Below, one piece after another: positions 3,738 to 25,982 of a DNA stretch of 31,938 nt. A model generated the notes under the pieces. It was not told the DNA's origin. It saw nothing but the letters and a program-made list of their open reading frames with translations, and made no database searches. The DNA lies in the IMG/VR virus record IMGVR_UViG_3300034521_000387, positions 1-31,938 of that record; one strand, given 5' to 3'. Source of the DNA: a virus. A program made the translations under genes and the position numbers. Every line of letters starts with the position of its first letter. The stretch's first letter is position 1.

Positions 3738-5787
3738 AGTACCCGTAAACAGACATACCAATAGCCGTATAGCACAGGCGGTGATTACCTGTTGCTGGAG
3801 TTGTACCCTGAACAGAGAACACCAACTGAGTTAATGTGCTGGCGTCATGATTATAAACTAGCCTTGTAGTTGGTGCCGTCGACAATTGGCAATCAGCATA
3901 CACAGGCTGTTCACGGAACTTATGATCTGTAACATCGATTGTAATGCTAGTTACTCCTGATGCTAATGATTGAACTAATGTACCTGACGCTTGGTATCTC
4001 TGAATCTGAGCCTGACGTTCGGGAAATGAAACAGGAATTCCTCCTGTAGGAAGTAGGTACGTATTCCCCTGTACTTTAAAATTCTCGTAGTTTCCACCAG
4101 ATAGTTCAGCCCCAAAGAACATAGGAAACTTAACATCTTTAAAAGTATTGTTAGAAACCAATGAGTTGTTTACCACATGCGGGCCGTTAGGTATGACTCC
4201 ATATGTCGTTCCAGTATCAAGAACCCACCCTTTAAATGTATTTCCAGTAATTGTGATACTATCCATAACCCCAAGATTTGGGAGATTAATAAGTCGGCAA
4301 TTGTCTTTCATTGCTGCTATTGAATTACCTGAAATAACTCCGTTGTGCGTGATGTAATTGCTAAGTCCGTTTATTATTTCTACCGATGAATTATAACCAG
4401 TTATTTCACCATTATCAGAGATAACAAAACCCTGACACCCACTTAATCTAATAGGATCTAGATAATCAGATACCTGATTACCAACAATGGATACAGCAAT
4501 GCTCGCATCAATATATATACCTAATATACCATCACCCATTAAATTGTTTTCTATCCTTATACCTTCACATCTACCACCAGTAGGTACAGTCCTCGGGGGA
4601 ACCCAAAATGGTCGACTAATAGAAATGATAGAGCTACCAGCAACATGAATATTCATTACGCTAGAACTAATATCATCCTCAAGAAGCGCGCGAATTCCAT
4701 ATCCGGTATCATCCGTTTTTGCACTAAAACCTGACACAGAGAAAATGGTGGAGTTGATAAACCTAAGCCCAGTAATCCCGGTCATTAGCACAGATGTTTG
4801 ACGCCGTGCTCCATGAGTAAACGTGCACCCACTAATGACGAATGGCATACTACCACCATAATCAAATATAGAATGTAGATATAAGTATACCTGGTCATCC
4901 GTTACACCAGTAAAGTGTAAGTTACTAAATTTTACCGTATATCGCTTTCCATCTACTGTAGAGTTAGCACTCTTAGTCGTCTCAAGCAGAATGTGTGAAG
5001 TCCCTGTAATAATAGAGCTAGGACCTTCACCTACGATAGAGAAATTCTTAGCAGGAGATACACACTTACTAAGGAGGTTTACTTTAGTGCCGGCTGGAAT
5101 GCGAATGCCGCTATGTCCCGATGATAATGCAGCCTGAAAAGCAGCAGAATCATCAGCAATGCCATCGCCAATAACGCCAAAATCTTTCACGCTAACAATA
5201 TCTCTCATTTTATCCTGGAATGTGCGGTATACCGCACCAATACCGGATTGAAGAAACCATCCAAACCCACCAACAACACCAGCAATAGCTTTTTCAACAT
5301 ATGATTGCATGCTGCGATTATTAACAGCATCCAGGCTTGATAATGGATCAGCGAGATTCGATATTCTGTTGTTTAGTGCATCATACCAATTTGCAATGCT
5401 GGCAGGTTTGCGAAGAGCCAGACTTAACCAACTGCGTACCTGCTGAATCAGCATCGTCAGTTTATCAAACGCATTCTCATGAACCTCAGCAAAAAACTTT
5501 CCCTGGTTCCGTAGATCAGTTTCCTGTGTTACCGGCAGTTCACGCGATATTGAAATTTGGTATCCGCTTGTCAGTGCCGTTGACAGTATGACATTACCTC
5601 CCTGGTATCCTCCGGCACCTGTAACGGTGTAGTCGGTATCCAGAACCAGTTCGGTGATGTTTTCATCCAGGTCAACAACCTGCACCACCAAATCAGACTT
5701 ATGAAAAATTCGGAAGGTATAGGGGAATGATGTCGTGACCCCGTTCCCCGTGTAGTCATTGTGGTCAACTTCGGTTGAAACCGTCAT
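3736..5787 (-). CDS. Tailspike, probable O-antigen/capsule depolymerase with beta-helix
   Basis: This 683-residue protein binds and probably cleaves host surface polysaccharide. The N-terminal 120 residues (NDYTGNGVTTSFPYTFRIF, then LDTDYTVTGAGG) resemble virion-attachment domains of short-tailed phage spikes. An alpha-helical linker follows. At about residues 200-213, VKDFGVIGDGIADD marks the start of a pectate-lyase-type right-handed beta-helix that continues through repeated short N/S/G-rich turns. ATG 5787 is used because GGAG lies 8 nt upstream; an in-frame start at 5829 lacks this. The body is AT-richer than the virion genes, as expected for a receptor-specific domain that is exchanged. 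It is shorter than the epsilon15 spike (about 1,070 residues, recalled), so the specificity probably differs. Catalytic residues are not assignable. Confidence 0.88.
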   Translation of the reverse strand: MTVSTEVDHNDYTGNGVTTSFPYTFRIFHKSDLVVQVVDLDENITELVLDTDYTVTGAGGYQGGNVILSTALTSGYQISISRELPVTQETDLRNQGKFFAEVHENAFDKLTMLIQQVRSWLSLALRKPASIANWYDALNNRISNLADPLSSLDAVNNRSMQSYVEKAIAGVVGGFGWFLQSGIGAVYRTFQDKMRDIVSVKDFGVIGDGIADDSAAFQAALSSGHSGIRIPAGTKVNLLSKCVSPAKNFSIVGEGPSSIITGTSHILLETTKSANSTVDGKRYTVKFSNLHFTGVTDDQVYLYLHSIFDYGGSMPFVISGCTFTHGARRQTSVLMTGITGLRFINSTIFSVSGFSAKTDDTGYGIRALLEDDISSSVMNIHVAGSSIISISRPFWVPPRTVPTGGRCEGIRIENNLMGDGILGIYIDASIAVSIVGNQVSDYLDPIRLSGCQGFVISDNGEITGYNSSVEIINGLSNYITHNGVISGNSIAAMKDNCRLINLPNLGVMDSITITGNTFKGWVLDTGTTYGVIPNGPHVVNNSLVSNNTFKDVKFPMFFGAELSGGNYENFKVQGNTYLLPTGGIPVSFPERQAQIQRYQASGTLVQSLASGVTSITIDVTDHKFREQPVYADCQLSTAPTTRLVYNHDASTLTQLVFSVQGTTPATGNHRLCYTAIGMSVYGY

Positions 5788-5893: not shown

Positions 5894-5910
5894 ATTACCT
5901 TACAGGTAAT
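5894..5910. promoter_or_regulatory. Perfect operator-like palindrome ATTACC-N5-GGTAAT
   Basis: ATTACC-TTACA-GGTAAT is one of four perfect 17-bp copies in this window. It lies between the leftward tailspike gene and the rightward LexA-box gene, so it could control either. Its minus-strand continuation GGTAATAAAAT is also seen at the 29748 copy. Confidence 0.65.
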
Positions 5911-17937: not shown

Positions 17938-18519
17938 TTAGACGCCCAGTTCTGCACGCTTTTCGGCGATCTCTTTTGCCAGCGTTTCAGCCGTTTTATT
18001 ACCCGGCTTCTTGCCTAGCAAATCCTCATACTTCTGCCGAAGCAGAGTAAGGTCTTCGCTTACCGCACCTGTGCCATCAGATTTCAATTCTTCCACTACC
18101 GGCTGAACAGCAACGGAAACTGGAGCATTGACAACTGAAACCGCTGATTTGCCTTTACGCTTTTCGGCGATCTCTTTTGCCAGCGTTTCAGCCGTTTTAT
18201 TACCCGGCTTCTTGCCTAGCAAATCCTCATACTTCTGCCGAAGCAGAGTAAGGTCTTCGCTTACCGCACCTGTGCCATCAGATTTCAATTCTTCCACTAC
18301 CGGCTGAACAGCAACGGAAACTGGAGCATTGACAACTGAAACCGCTGATTTGCCTTTACGCTTTTCGGCGATCTCTTTTGCCAATTTCGCCGCATCGTTC
18401 AATGGTTCCAGCGCCGTTCCTGGTTCACCGTCATACTCAACTTCAGAACCTTCAGGCCAGAGGTTGTTATGAATGTGAGATAAGCGCAGGACGCGGTATC
18501 TTGCTTTTTCACCTGACAT
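17938..18519 (-). CDS. Head-module protein with a duplicated HeH/SAP-like segment
   Basis: This 193-residue protein has an N-terminal segment of about 45 residues (RYRVLRLSHIHNNLWPEGSEVEYDGE) of the small beta type found in phage head-completion genes. It is followed by two identical tandem 67-residue units. Each unit holds an acidic Ala/Val linker and then LLRQKYEDLLGKKPGNKTAETLAKEIAEKR, which looks like a helix-extension-helix (HeH/SAP-like) motif. The second ends the protein (AELGV). The 201-bp DNA repeat is perfect, so the duplication is recent. A single-unit ancestor would have about 126 residues. AGGGG precedes the start. It lies between the cement and staple genes, suggesting a capsid-associated or DNA-contacting role, which is not proven. 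Confidence 0.7.
   Translation of the reverse strand: MSGEKARYRVLRLSHIHNNLWPEGSEVEYDGEPGTALEPLNDAAKLAKEIAEKRKGKSAVSVVNAPVSVAVQPVVEELKSDGTGAVSEDLTLLRQKYEDLLGKKPGNKTAETLAKEIAEKRKGKSAVSVVNAPVSVAVQPVVEELKSDGTGAVSEDLTLLRQKYEDLLGKKPGNKTAETLAKEIAEKRAELGV
17956..18383. repeat. Perfect 201-bp tandem duplication plus 26-bp partial third copy
   Basis: Copy 1 is 17956-18156 and copy 2 is 18157-18357, identical by reading. 18358-18383 repeats the first 26 bp again before diverging. The 26-bp segment (encoding AKEIAEKR) therefore borders every unit, so unequal recombination or slippage between its copies in a single-unit ancestor explains the expansion. The unit keeps the reading frame (201 = 67 codons). 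Confidence 0.93.
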
Positions 18520-20747: not shown

Positions 20748-21044
20748 TTACTCCTGTTCACTGGCCTCTGCGGCCATCTTCAGATACTGATCGGGGCAGT
20801 GCGCCATGACGCGCTGAAACAGAACCAGAGCCAGGTTGCGCTGCCCTTCGTTGAATGCTGTGATGTGCGGATCTACGTTGAAGCATGCGCCGAACACCTG
20901 ACCTTTCTCCAGCAGTGACCAGATCACGCGACGGCCCTGCTCGCTTCCCATAACGAACTGGATGTCGTCGATATCGCGCTGCGCCAGAAGTTGCTGTTTA
21001 GCGTCAAGCGCTGCTTTACGGCCTTCGTCGTCGATATCCATCAT
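20748..21044 (-). CDS. Bbp19-like small head protein
   Basis: This 98-residue protein is largely helical and matches the pattern of the Bbp19 family (BPP-1/epsilon15-like phages): a helical start with AKQQLLAQRD, then ...FVMGSEQGRRVIWSLLEKGQVFGACFNVD. The ATG overlaps the portal stop codon (ATGA). It lies between the portal and scaffold genes, as in related phages. The function is unknown; a role in head assembly is inferred from position. Confidence 0.72.
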   Translation of the reverse strand: MMDIDDEGRKAALDAKQQLLAQRDIDDIQFVMGSEQGRRVIWSLLEKGQVFGACFNVDPHITAFNEGQRNLALVLFQRVMAHCPDQYLKMAAEASEQE

Positions 21045-22711
21045 TGCTGCGGTGCTCCTGCTGCATTAGCGATAGCGGTTAATGCGCTAGGGTCAGTGGT
21101 CTGCGTTTCGCTGAGAGTCTTGGCTCCCTGCGCTGCGGCCTGCCCCATTGCCATTGCCTGTGCGGCTTGTTCCTGTTTGGCGCGTTCTTCTCGAATGCCC
21201 TGTACCTGCTCCTGCGGAACGATGACAGTTGGCGATACGCCTGACATTTCGGAGAACGCGTCGATAGCCTCATCAACATCGAGCTTGTCGAGTGCTTCAG
21301 GTTTGAACTGTGCCAGTTGACCGATGAAGCCAACGGTCTGCGACAGGCTGGTAAGGCCGATAGATTTCTGTGCCTGAGCCATCACGGAAATGTATTCGAT
21401 GCGCAACGGCATACCCTGCATAACGTCAGGCGGTGGTGGCAGCATGTTCTTGCGCGCCATGATGGAGAAAACGCGGTCAATAAGCGGGTTTAGCGCTTCG
21501 TCGTTCAGGCGCTCGAGCACCGGGCCCAACATCAGCAGTTTCTCTTCCTTCATTTCGATCACAGCTTCCACCGGCATTGAGCGGGTGTTGATGTTTTGCA
21601 GCATCATGAAGAGGTCGACGAAGTAGGCGCTGTTGATGGTCTGGCGGGTATCCTGAATGTCAGCGAGCAGATCTGCAGTATTCGGGTTTACCAGGTATGC
21701 AGGTTTGAAACCGTCCTGACCGGTCATTACGTCGAGATACGTCACATCACCAGGCAGCAGGGAAACACGCTTTGTTTTTAGCGATGTAGGAGCAACCATC
21801 GGCGGGTTAGTGGCCTTGTCGATCAGCTGAGCTTTACGCTTCTGCTCAACCTGAAGCGCTTTAACCTGACCGAGTGCCAGCATGCCAGGGCAAGATGAGG
21901 CGTAAACATCCTCTCCATTCACTTCCCAGCGCGGCGCGAGGATCGGGAATTCATCGAAGCCGGATTCACGCAGCAGCTTGTCAGCATCGCCGCCAGTCTC
22001 AAAATAGACAGAGCGGAATGGCTTGTTCTTGCTGTCCATCTTCCCAGTGTCGCGGTTAACGTTTGGCGTAATGCAGTGGTTAACCTCGATCCACGTTTCG
22101 TACGTGCCGTTCTCAAACATGCTTTTAACGGACGTGCTGACGTTATCCAGACCGAATTCCAGCACAAGCTGACGAACAGTCATGGAGAACTGACGGAAGG
22201 AAGTGTCGACGCTGCCACGCGGGCTGTTAGCCAGGTAGTAGCTGCCAATCGGGAATGGCATTGTGCGGATCACGTCCTGGTCATCTTCGAGCACAGCCAT
22301 TGCAGCGGTACCGAAAGTACCAAGGCTGGCGTACATGACAGGCAGTGACTGATACAGGTTCGATTTGTTGAAAACTTCGTTCATGCGGCGCTGCACAACT
22401 TCAAGCCAGACTTTCACCGGACCGTAATCCATCATGTCAGGGTCTGGCGTTGCCAGTTTGAACCATGGACGGGCCGGACTGGTGATACCAGACATCATGC
22501 CGCTGGACAAAATGCGCTGAGCCATTGAGCCAGTAGGATCAACAATCTTGGTGTTTCGACGATCATCACGGTTTACATCAGACGTCAGAAAGCGAGAACC
22601 GCGCGGATTGATGAAATCACTCAGGTCGCGCCAGTGCGACTCGAACGATGTGCGCTCATTCTTCAGCTGTGCAAGCTGCTTCAGCAGACGCTCTTTTTCG
22701 GTTTCCGCCAT
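21041..22711 (-). CDS. Portal protein (head-tail connector)
   Basis: This 556-residue protein forms the twelve-subunit ring at one vertex through which DNA is packaged and ejected. The N-terminus (KERLLKQLAQLKNERTSFESHWRDLSDFINPRGSRFL) is the typical start of podovirus head-tail connectors, with the conserved W/F...PRGSRF block. The centre includes GMMSGITSPARPWFKL and the clip/stem region. The Ala/Gln-rich C-terminus (about 510-556, REERAKQEQAAQAMAMGQAAAQGA) would form the barrel helices. Length equals the recalled epsilon15 portal (about 556). It is preceded by the small gene at 22726 and followed by the Bbp19-like gene with an ATGA overlap. Confidence 0.92.
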   Translation of the reverse strand: MAETEKERLLKQLAQLKNERTSFESHWRDLSDFINPRGSRFLTSDVNRDDRRNTKIVDPTGSMAQRILSSGMMSGITSPARPWFKLATPDPDMMDYGPVKVWLEVVQRRMNEVFNKSNLYQSLPVMYASLGTFGTAAMAVLEDDQDVIRTMPFPIGSYYLANSPRGSVDTSFRQFSMTVRQLVLEFGLDNVSTSVKSMFENGTYETWIEVNHCITPNVNRDTGKMDSKNKPFRSVYFETGGDADKLLRESGFDEFPILAPRWEVNGEDVYASSCPGMLALGQVKALQVEQKRKAQLIDKATNPPMVAPTSLKTKRVSLLPGDVTYLDVMTGQDGFKPAYLVNPNTADLLADIQDTRQTINSAYFVDLFMMLQNINTRSMPVEAVIEMKEEKLLMLGPVLERLNDEALNPLIDRVFSIMARKNMLPPPPDVMQGMPLRIEYISVMAQAQKSIGLTSLSQTVGFIGQLAQFKPEALDKLDVDEAIDAFSEMSGVSPTVIVPQEQVQGIREERAKQEQAAQAMAMGQAAAQGAKTLSETQTTDPSALTAIANAAGAPQQ

Positions 22712-22725
22712 CTCTGCCTACTCCG

Positions 22726-22932
22726 TTACTGACCGAGCAGCGTTTTACCGCTGGTGTTTGCGGTTGAGGTGTCGCCCTGCGCACCAGTCAGCAGAGTGGA
22801 ACTGCGGCCAGCTGCTGCACGGCGGCGGCGCTCTTCGTCGTCACGAGAACTGACAACTGCTGCATCCTGCTCCTGTGGCGCGGCCTGTACTTCTGGTGCT
22901 GCTGGCACTGATGGCTTGCTGCCGATACACAT
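22726..22932 (-). CDS. Small conserved podovirus protein upstream of portal
   Basis: This 68-residue protein starts MCIGSKPSVPAAPEV and continues with a Pro/Ala/Gln-rich stretch, a basic helical patch (SRDDEERRRRAAAGRSSTLLTG) and a TLLGQ ending. Small proteins with the ATLLTGA.../KTLLGQ pattern directly before the portal gene are common in podoviruses as I recall, with no established role. GGAG lies 10 nt before the ATG. It is the first gene of the head operon; its leader carries the palindrome pair at 22960-22984. Confidence 0.7.
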   Translation of the reverse strand: MCIGSKPSVPAAPEVQAAPQEQDAAVVSSRDDEERRRRAAAGRSSTLLTGAQGDTSTANTSGKTLLGQ

Positions 22933-23000: not shown

Positions 23001-23038
23001 TTGACACTTATAACATCAGATATTACCTTTTAGGTAAT
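23001..23038 (+). promoter_or_regulatory. Candidate rightward promoter overlapped by operator palindrome
   Basis: A consensus -35 TTGACA (23001-23006) is followed by weak -10 candidates at 23021-23029, within or beside the perfect palindrome ATTACC-TTTTA-GGTAAT (23022-23038). A regulator bound there would occlude the promoter or replace -10 contacts. Transcription from here would run into the structured region that begins a few bases downstream. The -35 and palindrome are certain; their function is inferred. Confidence 0.55.
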
Positions 23039-23040
23039 TG

Positions 23041-23859
23041 ATGTTGATGTAACTCAGTGGTTGTACGGCATATGGCACATGTGCCGCAGCGGTCCGGATG
23101 GGTTCCCTTGATGCTACTTCCCCAGCCGGGTAGCCGGAATGTGCAAGCCAGTGTTAGGTAAGCACGGACAGGCGACTCACCATCGTGGCTATACGGTGTG
23201 ACACCTCGGAAGAGACGAGGATGTCAGCCATTCACGTTAAGCATCTAACCGGGTGCTTAGCGGGACTGGAAGAGTTACCACTTGGAGACGGTCCTTTTAA
23301 ATGTCCTGGACAGTGGCGCTGACGACGGAGCGATAACCGAAGGTTGCATGCCCAACTGAAGGCATTGACTACCAGGAAAGATTGGGAGCCTGAAAGAATC
23401 AAGAGGCAGCTCTTTCAGGGTGATCCTGCCTAGTTGGTGAAAAGTCGTTATGCGGCTTCATTCCAGCCACGCTGGCTGTAAGGTCAGCACAAAACAGGTA
23501 AGAGCATTGCGACAATGCCAGCATTACGACCTTGAAATCGTAATCGCTTCAGTGCTCTTTCCGTTGTGGTGAATAAGGCATTGGTCAAGCGACTACCCAC
23601 CGCTTGATTCTGAAAAAGCATCTGCGCAGAGTTGCTATGCCGAATAGACTGCGTACCACAACCCAATCACGCCTTAGGACCGTGATGAAGCGCCCATAAG
23701 AACGATGCTGTGTAGCTATTGGCGGTGGCAGTTTCCCTTGATGCTGACCACCGTCACTTTTACACCAGAACGCCATTGCGATGACGTTGCGCTGTAAACC
23801 CGTAAAGCCATGGAAGGCACCCTTGCTTCCAGTTCGCCCACTTCGGTGGGCATTTTTTT
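23041..23859 (+). ncRNA. Large structured phage non-coding RNA candidate (about 820 nt)
   Basis: No reading frame longer than about 60 codons is present, yet the region is packed with nested long complements: CCTCG/CGAGG extended by TGACA/TGTCA (23199-23226); a 9-bp stem at 23235-23262 with a T-G pair that works only in the plus-strand RNA; CCTGAAAGA/TCTTTCAGG (23389-23419) enclosed by CCAACT..AGGCA/TGCCT-AGTTGG (23352-23437); CAGCCA/TGGCTG (23464-23478); AAGAGCA/TGCTCTT (23500-23559) enclosing ATTACGA/TCGTAAT; GTTGTGGT/ACCACAAC (23563-23662) enclosing GGCAT/ATGCC and TCAAGCG/CGCTTGA as a multi-branch junction; ATCACG/CGTGAT; CGGTGG/CCACCG; TGGAAG/CTTCCA. A rho-independent terminator gives the 3' end and sets the strand. 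In size and setting it resembles GOLLD/ROOL-type giant phage RNAs, but I cannot assign it to a known family. Confidence 0.75.
23836..23859 (+). terminator. Strong intrinsic terminator at end of structured RNA
   Basis: GCCCAC-TTCG-GTGGGC followed by A and seven T. There is no T run on the minus strand after the stem, so it acts rightward. It ends only 11 nt before the next ATG. Confidence 0.92.
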
Positions 23860-23870
23860 AAGGTGAGATT

Positions 23871-24299
23871 ATGAAAACAGCTGATATGTTGGCTACGTAT
23901 TTAGACGCATGGCCAAGCAAATACATCAGAATCTTTCAGGGTAGTGACTCCATTTTTTATGGTGAAGAATCTATCGGCGAAACTGATTTAGTAATAACTA
24001 AGGCAATACCCGGTGAACAACTGGCAGGGTTAATGCTGAGTGAAGATGCTGGAACGTGCATCACCTGTCAGGAGTGGGTTGCTGCACGTATGTCGGCAAT
24101 GGAAAAGGGTGATGTGCCTGATATTTCTCGTGCCTACGTCAATAAAGAAAAAAGTGATGATGATTACATACGCGAACACTTATACAACATGAAGTTGCAA
24201 TGTCTGCATGCGGCGCTTATTCAGAATGGGCAATTCGATAAAACCACTGCCACCAACATTGCGGAAGCCATCAACGCTGGATTTGATGCCATCAAGTAA
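23871..24299 (+). CDS. Unrecognised 142-residue protein downstream of the structured RNA
   Basis: This soluble, acidic protein begins MKTADMLATYLDAWPSKYIRIFQGSD and has no signal peptide or membrane segment. A central CITCQEW carries two cysteines; the second half is helical (DDDYIREHLYNMKLQCLHAALIQNGQFDKTTATNIAEAINAGFDAI). I do not recognise a family. It has a good Shine-Dalgarno (AGGTGAG) placed directly after the T run of the RNA's terminator, so without a promoter in the gap its mRNA can arise only by read-through. It has its own palindrome and terminator at the 3' end. With the RNA it forms a rightward cassette inserted in the leftward terminase-portal order. A role tied to the RNA, for example as binding partner or regulator, is a guess from linkage. 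Confidence 0.72.
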   Translation: MKTADMLATYLDAWPSKYIRIFQGSDSIFYGEESIGETDLVITKAIPGEQLAGLMLSEDAGTCITCQEWVAARMSAMEKGDVPDISRAYVNKEKSDDDYIREHLYNMKLQCLHAALIQNGQFDKTTATNIAEAINAGFDAIK

Positions 24300-24500: not shown

Positions 24501-25982
24501 CTATTTCCACGGGTCATAATCAGTCAGCGCCTTACCCTGCTGGCTTTGCTGCTGCCCATAGTTGAACTGTTTTTTGGTGACCGGAGCGGCATAAGTCAGC
24601 ACATAGGCGTCGGCATTGTTCGGTGACCGGCCAAGCAATTCTTTCACCTCGTCCTTATCCTGTAAAATCTTCCTGCTGTCCTTCAGCCTGACTTTGTATT
24701 CAGGTGCGCTCAGTTCGTCGGCAAGTTCCTGGCTATCCAGTTGAGCCCCTAGCTTCAGCGCATCGCGGGCGGATTTGTACATCTCGCCGCGCTTATTGCC
24801 CATCTCGGGATCTGCCGTACCGCTGCCGAACATTATCAGCGTCCAGTTGCGCCCCCAGTTGTCGCCAACGGATTTTAGCCCTGTCCCATAGCCGTAATCG
24901 ATAAACACAGCATCAGCCTGGTACTGGTCCTCGAAGTCGGCAATCACTTTCGCAAACAGCACATCGTCGGTGGTACGCTGCCACTCCCCAAGTTTCTTGC
25001 AGTGCAGTCCCTGCCGCAGGTAGATAACTGCCGGGTCTTTCCCCTGGTGAGACGGGTCGACGCCAAGAACTACAGCAGCGTGCTGGACCTGTGCCGGAGT
25101 GATAACCCTGCCAACAGCTGGTTGCGTCAGGCCGGAAGGAATGAACTGGTTTTCAGAAGCGTCAGGAAAGATCCCGCGCACACGGACCTTCACGAAGTCG
25201 CTGTCCTCGCCGTAGTCGTCCACCCATTTTTGCATTTGCTCCTTGTTGGTGCCTTCAACGGTGCGGGAATCAATCTGCGCACACTTCCATCGGTGTTTAT
25301 ATTTACGGAAGCATTCACGGAAACGCCCGGTGTTACGTGTCGGGTTCCCGAACGCCACCCAGATAATCTCTGTGTCTTCGTCCGTCAGCGCCCCCTCTGC
25401 TACCTCCCACACCAGATCGGCAATGTTGGACGCTTCATCGAATACCACGATGATGCGCTTACGCTCGTTGTGCAGCCCGGCGAACGCCTCGGTGTTGTGT
25501 TCAGACCATGGGATAGCGTCAGCGCGCCAGCGTTTATCGTGACCGGGATCATTGCTGTACATCGCTGTGGCGGTGCAGGTGAACCACTCCTTAGTGATAG
25601 CCAGGTTCGACCATTTGATGATTTCCGGCCAGGTCTTGGTACGCAACTGATTGTCGGTGTTGGCGGTTACCACCACCTTGCAATCCTCGCAGGTGGACAT
25701 GCCCCAATTGATGAGCATCGAGATGAAAGCAGATTTACCGATGCCGTGACCGGATGCGCGGGCCAGCATCAGCGGCTGGTGACGGGTAGCAGGATTCTGT
25801 AGATGGTCGCGTATCTCGCGGAATGCATCAGCCTGCCATTTTCGCGGGCCGGTGGCATGCTCCAGTTCTGTCCCCTCTTCGCCCCACGGGAATGCATACA
25901 GCGAATATCCCAGCGGGTCATACGTGAACGAGGCGATATCTTCTACGAGCTGCTCTTCCGGCGACATGGCTTCGACTGTCAT
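24501..25982 (-). CDS. terL: Terminase large subunit
   Basis: This 493-residue ATPase-nuclease motor packages DNA into the procapsid. The Walker A motif GHGIGKS is at residues 78-84. Walker B VVFDEAS is at 179-185, with catalytic Glu183, and is followed by the coupling motif FGNPT (211-215). The C-terminal RNase H-like nuclease shows acidic residues in VLGVDPS (Asp309), VFIDYGYG (Asp362) and NADAYVLTY (Asp458). All key elements of both domains are present. The ATG overlaps the terS stop (ATGA). In many relatives the next gene is the small pre-portal protein; here a rightward RNA cassette of 1.5 kb intervenes. Confidence 0.95.
   Translation of the reverse strand: MTVEAMSPEEQLVEDIASFTYDPLGYSLYAFPWGEEGTELEHATGPRKWQADAFREIRDHLQNPATRHQPLMLARASGHGIGKSAFISMLINWGMSTCEDCKVVVTANTDNQLRTKTWPEIIKWSNLAITKEWFTCTATAMYSNDPGHDKRWRADAIPWSEHNTEAFAGLHNERKRIIVVFDEASNIADLVWEVAEGALTDEDTEIIWVAFGNPTRNTGRFRECFRKYKHRWKCAQIDSRTVEGTNKEQMQKWVDDYGEDSDFVKVRVRGIFPDASENQFIPSGLTQPAVGRVITPAQVQHAAVVLGVDPSHQGKDPAVIYLRQGLHCKKLGEWQRTTDDVLFAKVIADFEDQYQADAVFIDYGYGTGLKSVGDNWGRNWTLIMFGSGTADPEMGNKRGEMYKSARDALKLGAQLDSQELADELSAPEYKVRLKDSRKILQDKDEVKELLGRSPNNADAYVLTYAAPVTKKQFNYGQQQSQQGKALTDYDPWK

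Follow-up and report, generated by a model that had tools for sequence, protein, structure and literature searches.

Several described RNAs of phages and prophages bear on the region reported here. The dicBF operon of the Qin prophage of E. coli K-12 is repressed by DicA and gives transcripts of 1,146 and 1,608 nt (PMC10448788). DicF exists as a 190-nt form, whose 5' end RNase III generates, and as a 53-nt form produced by RNase E (PMC10448788). PasD and STnc100 are reported to have a common origin and to be located in lambdoid prophages (PMC13192938), in passages that describe no core RNA of the kind presented below. Finally, the put RNA of phage HK022 lies at the 5' end of the early operon, ahead of terminators (PMC9378689).

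A non-coding region between two head genes

The window, a virus record of 31,938 bases, has its nearest kin among the epsilon15-like phages (Uetakevirus). A preliminary description had proposed a large structured RNA, transcribed from the + strand, in a podovirus. Between positions 23041 and 23859 the longest stop-free run on that strand is 54 codons and no + strand ORF of at least 60 amino acids was found, in agreement with the claim that no coding frame is present. The region lies between the portal and terminase genes as had been said, except that an additional small gene separates it from terminase (Table 1). The individual elements named in the preliminary description are also present. 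The two arms of the 8-bp closing stem match exactly (GTTGTGGT at 23563-23570 with ACCACAAC at 23655-23662), the stem at 23235-23262 reads as claimed, and the terminator placed at 23836 is located at 23832-23851 plus a U-tract. The region has no Rfam match at gathering scores. We conclude that this non-coding RNA region of about 800 bases between two head genes is a real patchwork of parts.

Table 1. Coordinates of genes, predicted signals and RNA elements in and around the region.
Feature	Position	Strand	Description
Portal/head-tail connector gene	21041-22711		
Small gene after portal	22726-22932		
Predicted promoter	23001-23029	+	TTGACA, 17-nt spacer, weak -10 TACCTT; absent from the consensus scan list
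Operator-like palindrome	23023-23037		TTACC-N5-GGTAA; covers the -10
Conserved core RNA	23065-23221	+	~157 nt; model R1, 157.8 bits; covariation
Core 5' hairpin			CGGCATATG-GCA-CATGTGCCG; variable stem next
Core pseudoknot	~23178-23181 with ~23195-23198		hairpin loop CACC pairs with downstream GGTG
Core terminal hairpin			CCTCG-GAAGAGA-CGAGG
Block M3	23222-23489	+	more hairpins, e.g. 23235-23262
H-module	23490-23568	+	hairpin AAGAGCATT...AGTGCTCTT, variable payload, flanks CAAAAC/GTTGTG
T-module	23563-23662	+	tRNA-like slot, 8-bp closing stem; Methylophilales-1-like variant
Conserved hairpin	23666-23686	+	ATCACG...CGTGAT; alignment A2
T1, terminator-like hairpin and U-tract	23721-23763	+	DicF-like; compensatory changes in A2
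Conserved hairpin	23759-23798	+	TTTACA...TGTAAA, inner CAT-TGCG-ATG; A2, mostly invariant
T2, intrinsic terminator	23832-23858	+	terminator scan; compensatory changes in A2
Small gene between RNA and terminase	23871-24299	+	142 aa
Terminase large subunit	24501-25982		

The assignment to the + strand rests on the terminators, the downstream gene and G-U pairs. Folding energy (z of -2.74 on the + strand and -2.55 on the - strand, from 20 shuffles) is weak evidence and cannot pick the strand. As the minimum-energy fold improves just modestly on shuffled sequences on either strand, folding energy was rejected as proof of structure or of strand, and the argument for structure is a comparative one. 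Covariation among relatives, which the preliminary description had proposed as a check, bears the structure out, with compensatory changes above those in shuffled alignments for both the core and the tail.

The relatives are numerous. Salmonella PAT1, 65FD and 66FD contain 94% of the RNA region at 93% identity, and blastn identified relatives in at least 88 phage records. Among 5,426 complete E. coli genomes, 1,417 also contain matches, which mostly cover part of the core.

The palindrome that overlaps the predicted promoter occurs five times in the window, always with a 5-base gap (at 5895, 23023, 26593, 29687 and 29749), and the same site is annotated as a repressor site in the epsilon15 record. 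Elsewhere in the window, a 45-base string starting TTGACAACTGAAACC is present twice (at 18128 and 18329, 201 bases apart) inside the gene at 17938-18519.

A conserved core RNA

The first element of the region is the core, which we examined in an alignment of 40 diverse copies. Its six scored helices show 93.6% standard pairs and 123 cells with two-sided change, compared with 36.7 in shuffled alignments. Covariation scores 0.338 in the alignment and 0.139 after shuffling, and the signal is lost when the partners are slid. The pseudoknot reads AACC/GGTT in three aligned sequences, a change from C-G to an A-U pair, and the corresponding positions in Serratia phage Eta, which lies outside the alignment, read AGCC/GGCT and represent a third compensated state. 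In that phage the covariance model matches only the second half of the core (23.5 bits). RNAalifold favors a long-range GCACAT/ATGTGC pairing that could compete with the 5' hairpin; these bases are invariant, and covariation therefore cannot judge the alternative. The core also contains a long invariant stretch, CCGGAATGTGCAAG.

No Rfam covariance model matches the core significantly, and we found no description of it in the literature. The core-bearing phage records examined, whose carriers include P1, P7, phiV10 and mEp460, contain no RNA annotation for it. The novelty suggested in the preliminary description applies to part of the region: the core is new, but some of the modules behind it belong to or resemble tRNA, STnc100, DicF and perhaps Methylophilales-1. 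As judged by comparison of sequences, the new part is conserved, predicted to be pseudoknotted, and has no catalogued match.

A pattern search for the core identified at least 120 stretches of viral sequence. In data with one genome per species the pattern yielded 21 stretches, 19 of which are real, and all 19 are from Enterobacteriaceae. The other two, L146 (Verrucomicrobiota) and L152 (uncultured), were rejected as chance matches because they contain the pattern without the core. In a sample of 295 genomes from a single family, the covariance model detected the core in 6.

The podovirus setting is correct for the window, but the core is not confined to it. P1, P7, RCS47 and D6 all carry it, as do the Klebsiella Lastavirus SopranoGao and epsilon15-like phages; in lambdoid phages it lies downstream of the repressor. 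In P1 the core stands alone between trnI and ban, and no terminator separates it from ban. Stenotrophomonas phage BUCT708 (L011) carries a core and modules close to the enterobacterial ones, and its host label is possibly questionable. In phage epsilon15 itself (L001), most of the core is missing, as are the modules that follow it, but T2 and a downstream gene are retained; the RNA is consequently dispensable in that phage. At 3746-3918 of this locus, the initial portion of the core runs directly into the central portion of T1, with the intervening sequence missing, and T2 and the gene follow.

The core recurs near transcript starts. At several loci no more than a few bases separate its beginning from the predicted transcript start or from the -10 that precedes it, and the leftward operon of mEp460 opens with a core, an array and a terminator. 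No N is annotated in mEp460, and the first seven genes of this operon match no N family. Separately, matches to C4 antisense RNA and isrK occur at 129-317 of this locus (L006), in the Rha/antirepressor region. Like HK022 put, the core is placed at the 5' end of a transcript, before terminators. However, put consists of about 70 nt in two stem-loops, compared with the pseudoknotted core of about 157 nt. The HK022 early region, searched as a whole with the R1 model and BLAST, has no similarity to the core, and homology between the two was rejected.

The loci with a core near the transcript start and the mEp460 operon suggest that the core may act on transcriptional read-through. As a put-like antiterminator the core is a tentative candidate, with the role proposed from its position. 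The P1 arrangement, with no terminator between core and ban, fits such a role less well, and a pure antiterminator would not call for the conservation that is seen in the structures separating the core from the terminators. Alternatively, the core could be a self-contained RNA that acts in trans or binds a protein, its 5' placement simply securing expression and the terminators being ordinary. The invariant stretch would then suggest a candidate binding site, and the solitary core of P1 and the half-core of Serratia phage Eta are consistent with an independent unit. However, a trans role does not require the recurrent position 5' of terminators and genes, and we consider this explanation rather doubtful.

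Exchangeable modules and a terminator tail

Behind the core, relatives contain differing combinations of the same parts, which are independently gained, lost and swapped. Block M3 is common to Salmonella PAT1, Kosakonia, Phytobacter and Pseudescherichia; it is 98.5% identical in L002 and 89% in L137, and is partial in 16 other matches. The H-module of the window is 88.6% identical in Serratia phage Eta and has approximately 97 distinct relatives, which form long hairpins with varying payloads and ends resembling ACAAC/GTTGTG. Covariation was counted for the H-modules, but because they were selected by the pairing of their arms the count is not independent evidence.

Certain H-module payloads recur among phages. 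The hairpin GACGGGCTCATAACCCAATC, with variants, is found in the mEp460 array (655 nt into the stretch) and others, including the H-modules of L025, L033, L076, L079, L140 and L153. It includes the 13-mer GGGCTCATAACCC of the initiator-tRNA anticodon arm, and the stems that flank it vary among phages. The payloads of L018, L083 and L135 include hairpins that resemble tRNA T-arms, for example GGTTCGATTCC, with two in L018.

T-modules run from GTTGTGG to CCACAAC. The sequence GTTGTG is common to the closing stems of the H- and T-modules of the window, so that the two stems are mutually exclusive. Among relatives, the slot contains tRNA-Arg, forms that score as tRNA, or STnc100-like forms. Arms resembling the D and T arms occur at the tRNA positions in 23 of 48 distinct T-modules, compared with 1.6 ± 1.2 in shuffled sequences. 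In several phages, including O157 phages, a genuine tRNA-Arg(UCU) occupies the slot, and the T-modules of L079 and L013 (approximately 125 nt) pass the Rfam tRNA cut-off (43.9 and 37.4 versus 29 bits). While the acceptor, D and T layout of tRNA (RF00005) recurs, T-modules carry a long variable sequence instead of the anticodon domain. The T-module of L019 has GCGGA-CTTTTAA-TCCGT at the position of the anticodon arm, which is the tRNA-Lys(UUU) loop. Neither RF00005 (at 29 bits) nor ARAGORN identified a tRNA in the window.

Several T-modules of relatives match the STnc100 model (RF02076), reaching 45.8 (E 5.7e-7), 43.2 and 34.4 bits against a cut-off of 47. The T-module of the window is another variant, and STnc100 has no match there at gathering scores or at E<=5. 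Instead, it matches Methylophilales-1 (RF03011) weakly over the full length (17.1 bits, with 28.2 bits for L115), both values falling short of the 79.9-bit cut-off for membership. The two RNAs have the same closing stem and the motif GAAUAAGGCA...UGCCGA, and the window T-module may share common descent with Methylophilales-1.

The resemblance to tRNA raises the question of whether the array, by mimicking the anticodon arms of the host, could serve as a decoy against defense enzymes that cut tRNA (anticodon nucleases, VapC, PARIS, PrrC). The true tRNA-Arg(UCU) of the O157 phages, the tRNA-Lys(UUU) loop in one T-module, the recurring initiator-tRNA payload, and the paired D-like and T-like arms are all in keeping with such a function. 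However, host anticodon loops on short stems number 10 in the arrays and 10 on the reverse complement, and with longer stems 4 versus 3. Anticodon-loop hairpins being equally frequent on the complementary strand, the decoy is unsupported and we regard it as improbable.

The tail was compared in an alignment (A2) of 30 sequences. Its helices show 97.3% standard pairs and 42 cells with two-sided change compared with 15.6 after shuffling, concentrated in T1 and T2. T1 is a DicF-like hairpin with a short U-tract, and T2 is a standard terminator. The DicF model (RF00039) matches positions 23707-23756 over its full length with 12.6 bits, which is below the 48 bits that define membership. Weak window matches to models such as isrB, RyhB and Sphinx_2 do not reach the respective cut-offs and were attributed to chance or to terminator similarity.

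The gene that follows T2 belongs to phrog_4846, which has no assigned function, and its product has no Pfam match. The ribosome binding site of this gene, AAGGTGAG, lies immediately 3' of the T2 U-tract. Most epsilon15-like relatives are arranged in the same way, with the last U-tract followed by a ribosome binding site (AAGGTGA) and the ATG of small genes from unrelated families (GGGCATTTTTTTAAGGTGAnATTATG). With no room for a promoter after T2, the downstream genes need read-through, unless the terminator hairpin itself contains a promoter. The genes behind the RNA in relatives are diverse and mostly of unassigned function; one is Phage_gp49_66.

The order of promoter, structured RNA and terminator abutting an ORF matches that of a type III toxin-antitoxin system, in which the RNA would be the antitoxin and the gene the toxin. 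However, the downstream genes are diverse and none of those tested is ToxN-like, including the one behind the window terminator, and the short tandem repeats of such antitoxins are not seen, which leaves this reading very improbable. A single giant RNA with one global fold, as in GOLLD or ROOL, was raised by the preliminary description on account of the size, phage setting and nested helices, but the Rfam covariance models give neither family even at E<=5, and a chain of independently shuffled modules contradicts the one conserved fold of those RNAs, so that this can hardly be maintained.

A proposed processed, repressor-controlled leader

The organization of the modules is shared with the dicBF leader. 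Downstream of dicA, the K-12 Qin prophage has an H-module, a T-module, DicF, a second T-module and dicB. Over 123 nt, a T-module of this leader shares 92.7% identity with the T-module of a prophage that carries the core. As in the window, homologous H- and T-modules precede the DicF hairpin and terminator. The Qin leader is repressor-controlled and adjoins the repressor gene. However, dicBF has no core, the gene behind it is dicB, and DicF scores 76.7 bits in Qin compared with 12.6 bits for T1 of the window. Counting 190 nt back from the end of DicF leads to the 3' arm of the Qin H-module, which indicates that the 190-nt species is T-module plus DicF. Since RNase III cuts a homologous H-module in Qin, homology provides a processing route for the array of the window, and by this analogy the H-module is likely an RNase III substrate.

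We propose, with a probability of roughly one half, that the region is a repressor-controlled leader that is processed into small RNAs and gates the downstream gene by terminator read-through. What we observe in this region is structural conservation, a modular build, repeated operators, a pair of terminators and the junction of terminator and ribosome binding site. Work on the homologous Qin dicBF leader has established repressor control, processing by both RNase III and RNase E, and the existence of a longer transcript besides the terminated one (PMC10448788). The rightward, untranslated leader would be expressed once phage repression is lifted, and most transcripts would stop at T1 or T2. 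Cleavage by RNase III, at least in the H-modules, would release stable, folded fragments that combine the T-module with the DicF-like tail, and in this phage these fragments may function as small RNAs of the DicF, STnc100 and PasD kind. A minority of transcripts would pass T2 into the gene at 23871, which has no space for its own promoter. The core, as the 5' element, would set in cis how often RNA polymerase passes the terminators, in a way comparable to HK022 put. The weak -10, a promoter missed by the scan, the low-scoring DicF-like hairpin, and the loss of most of the region in epsilon15 are counterpoints to this leader model.

More speculatively, the core may represent a widespread new class of pseudoknotted, put-like processive antiterminators that act on RNA polymerase in cis, accompanied by a kit of shuffled tRNA-like small-RNA cassettes, with STnc100, PasD, the DicF leader and Methylophilales-1 as scattered representatives of it; we do not think this broader reading probable. 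Whatever the function of the core, P1, P7, phiV10 and mEp460 are model phages that carry it, and yet it has no Rfam match. Comparison of the modules connects several orphan small-RNA families and accounts for the position of the RNase III cut in the dicBF leader. Some tRNA-like modules are intermediate between a genuine tRNA and STnc100, which suggests that small RNAs can arise from phage tRNAs. Finally, the core offers a testable account of how some lambdoid phages without a recognized N gene express an operon behind a terminator.
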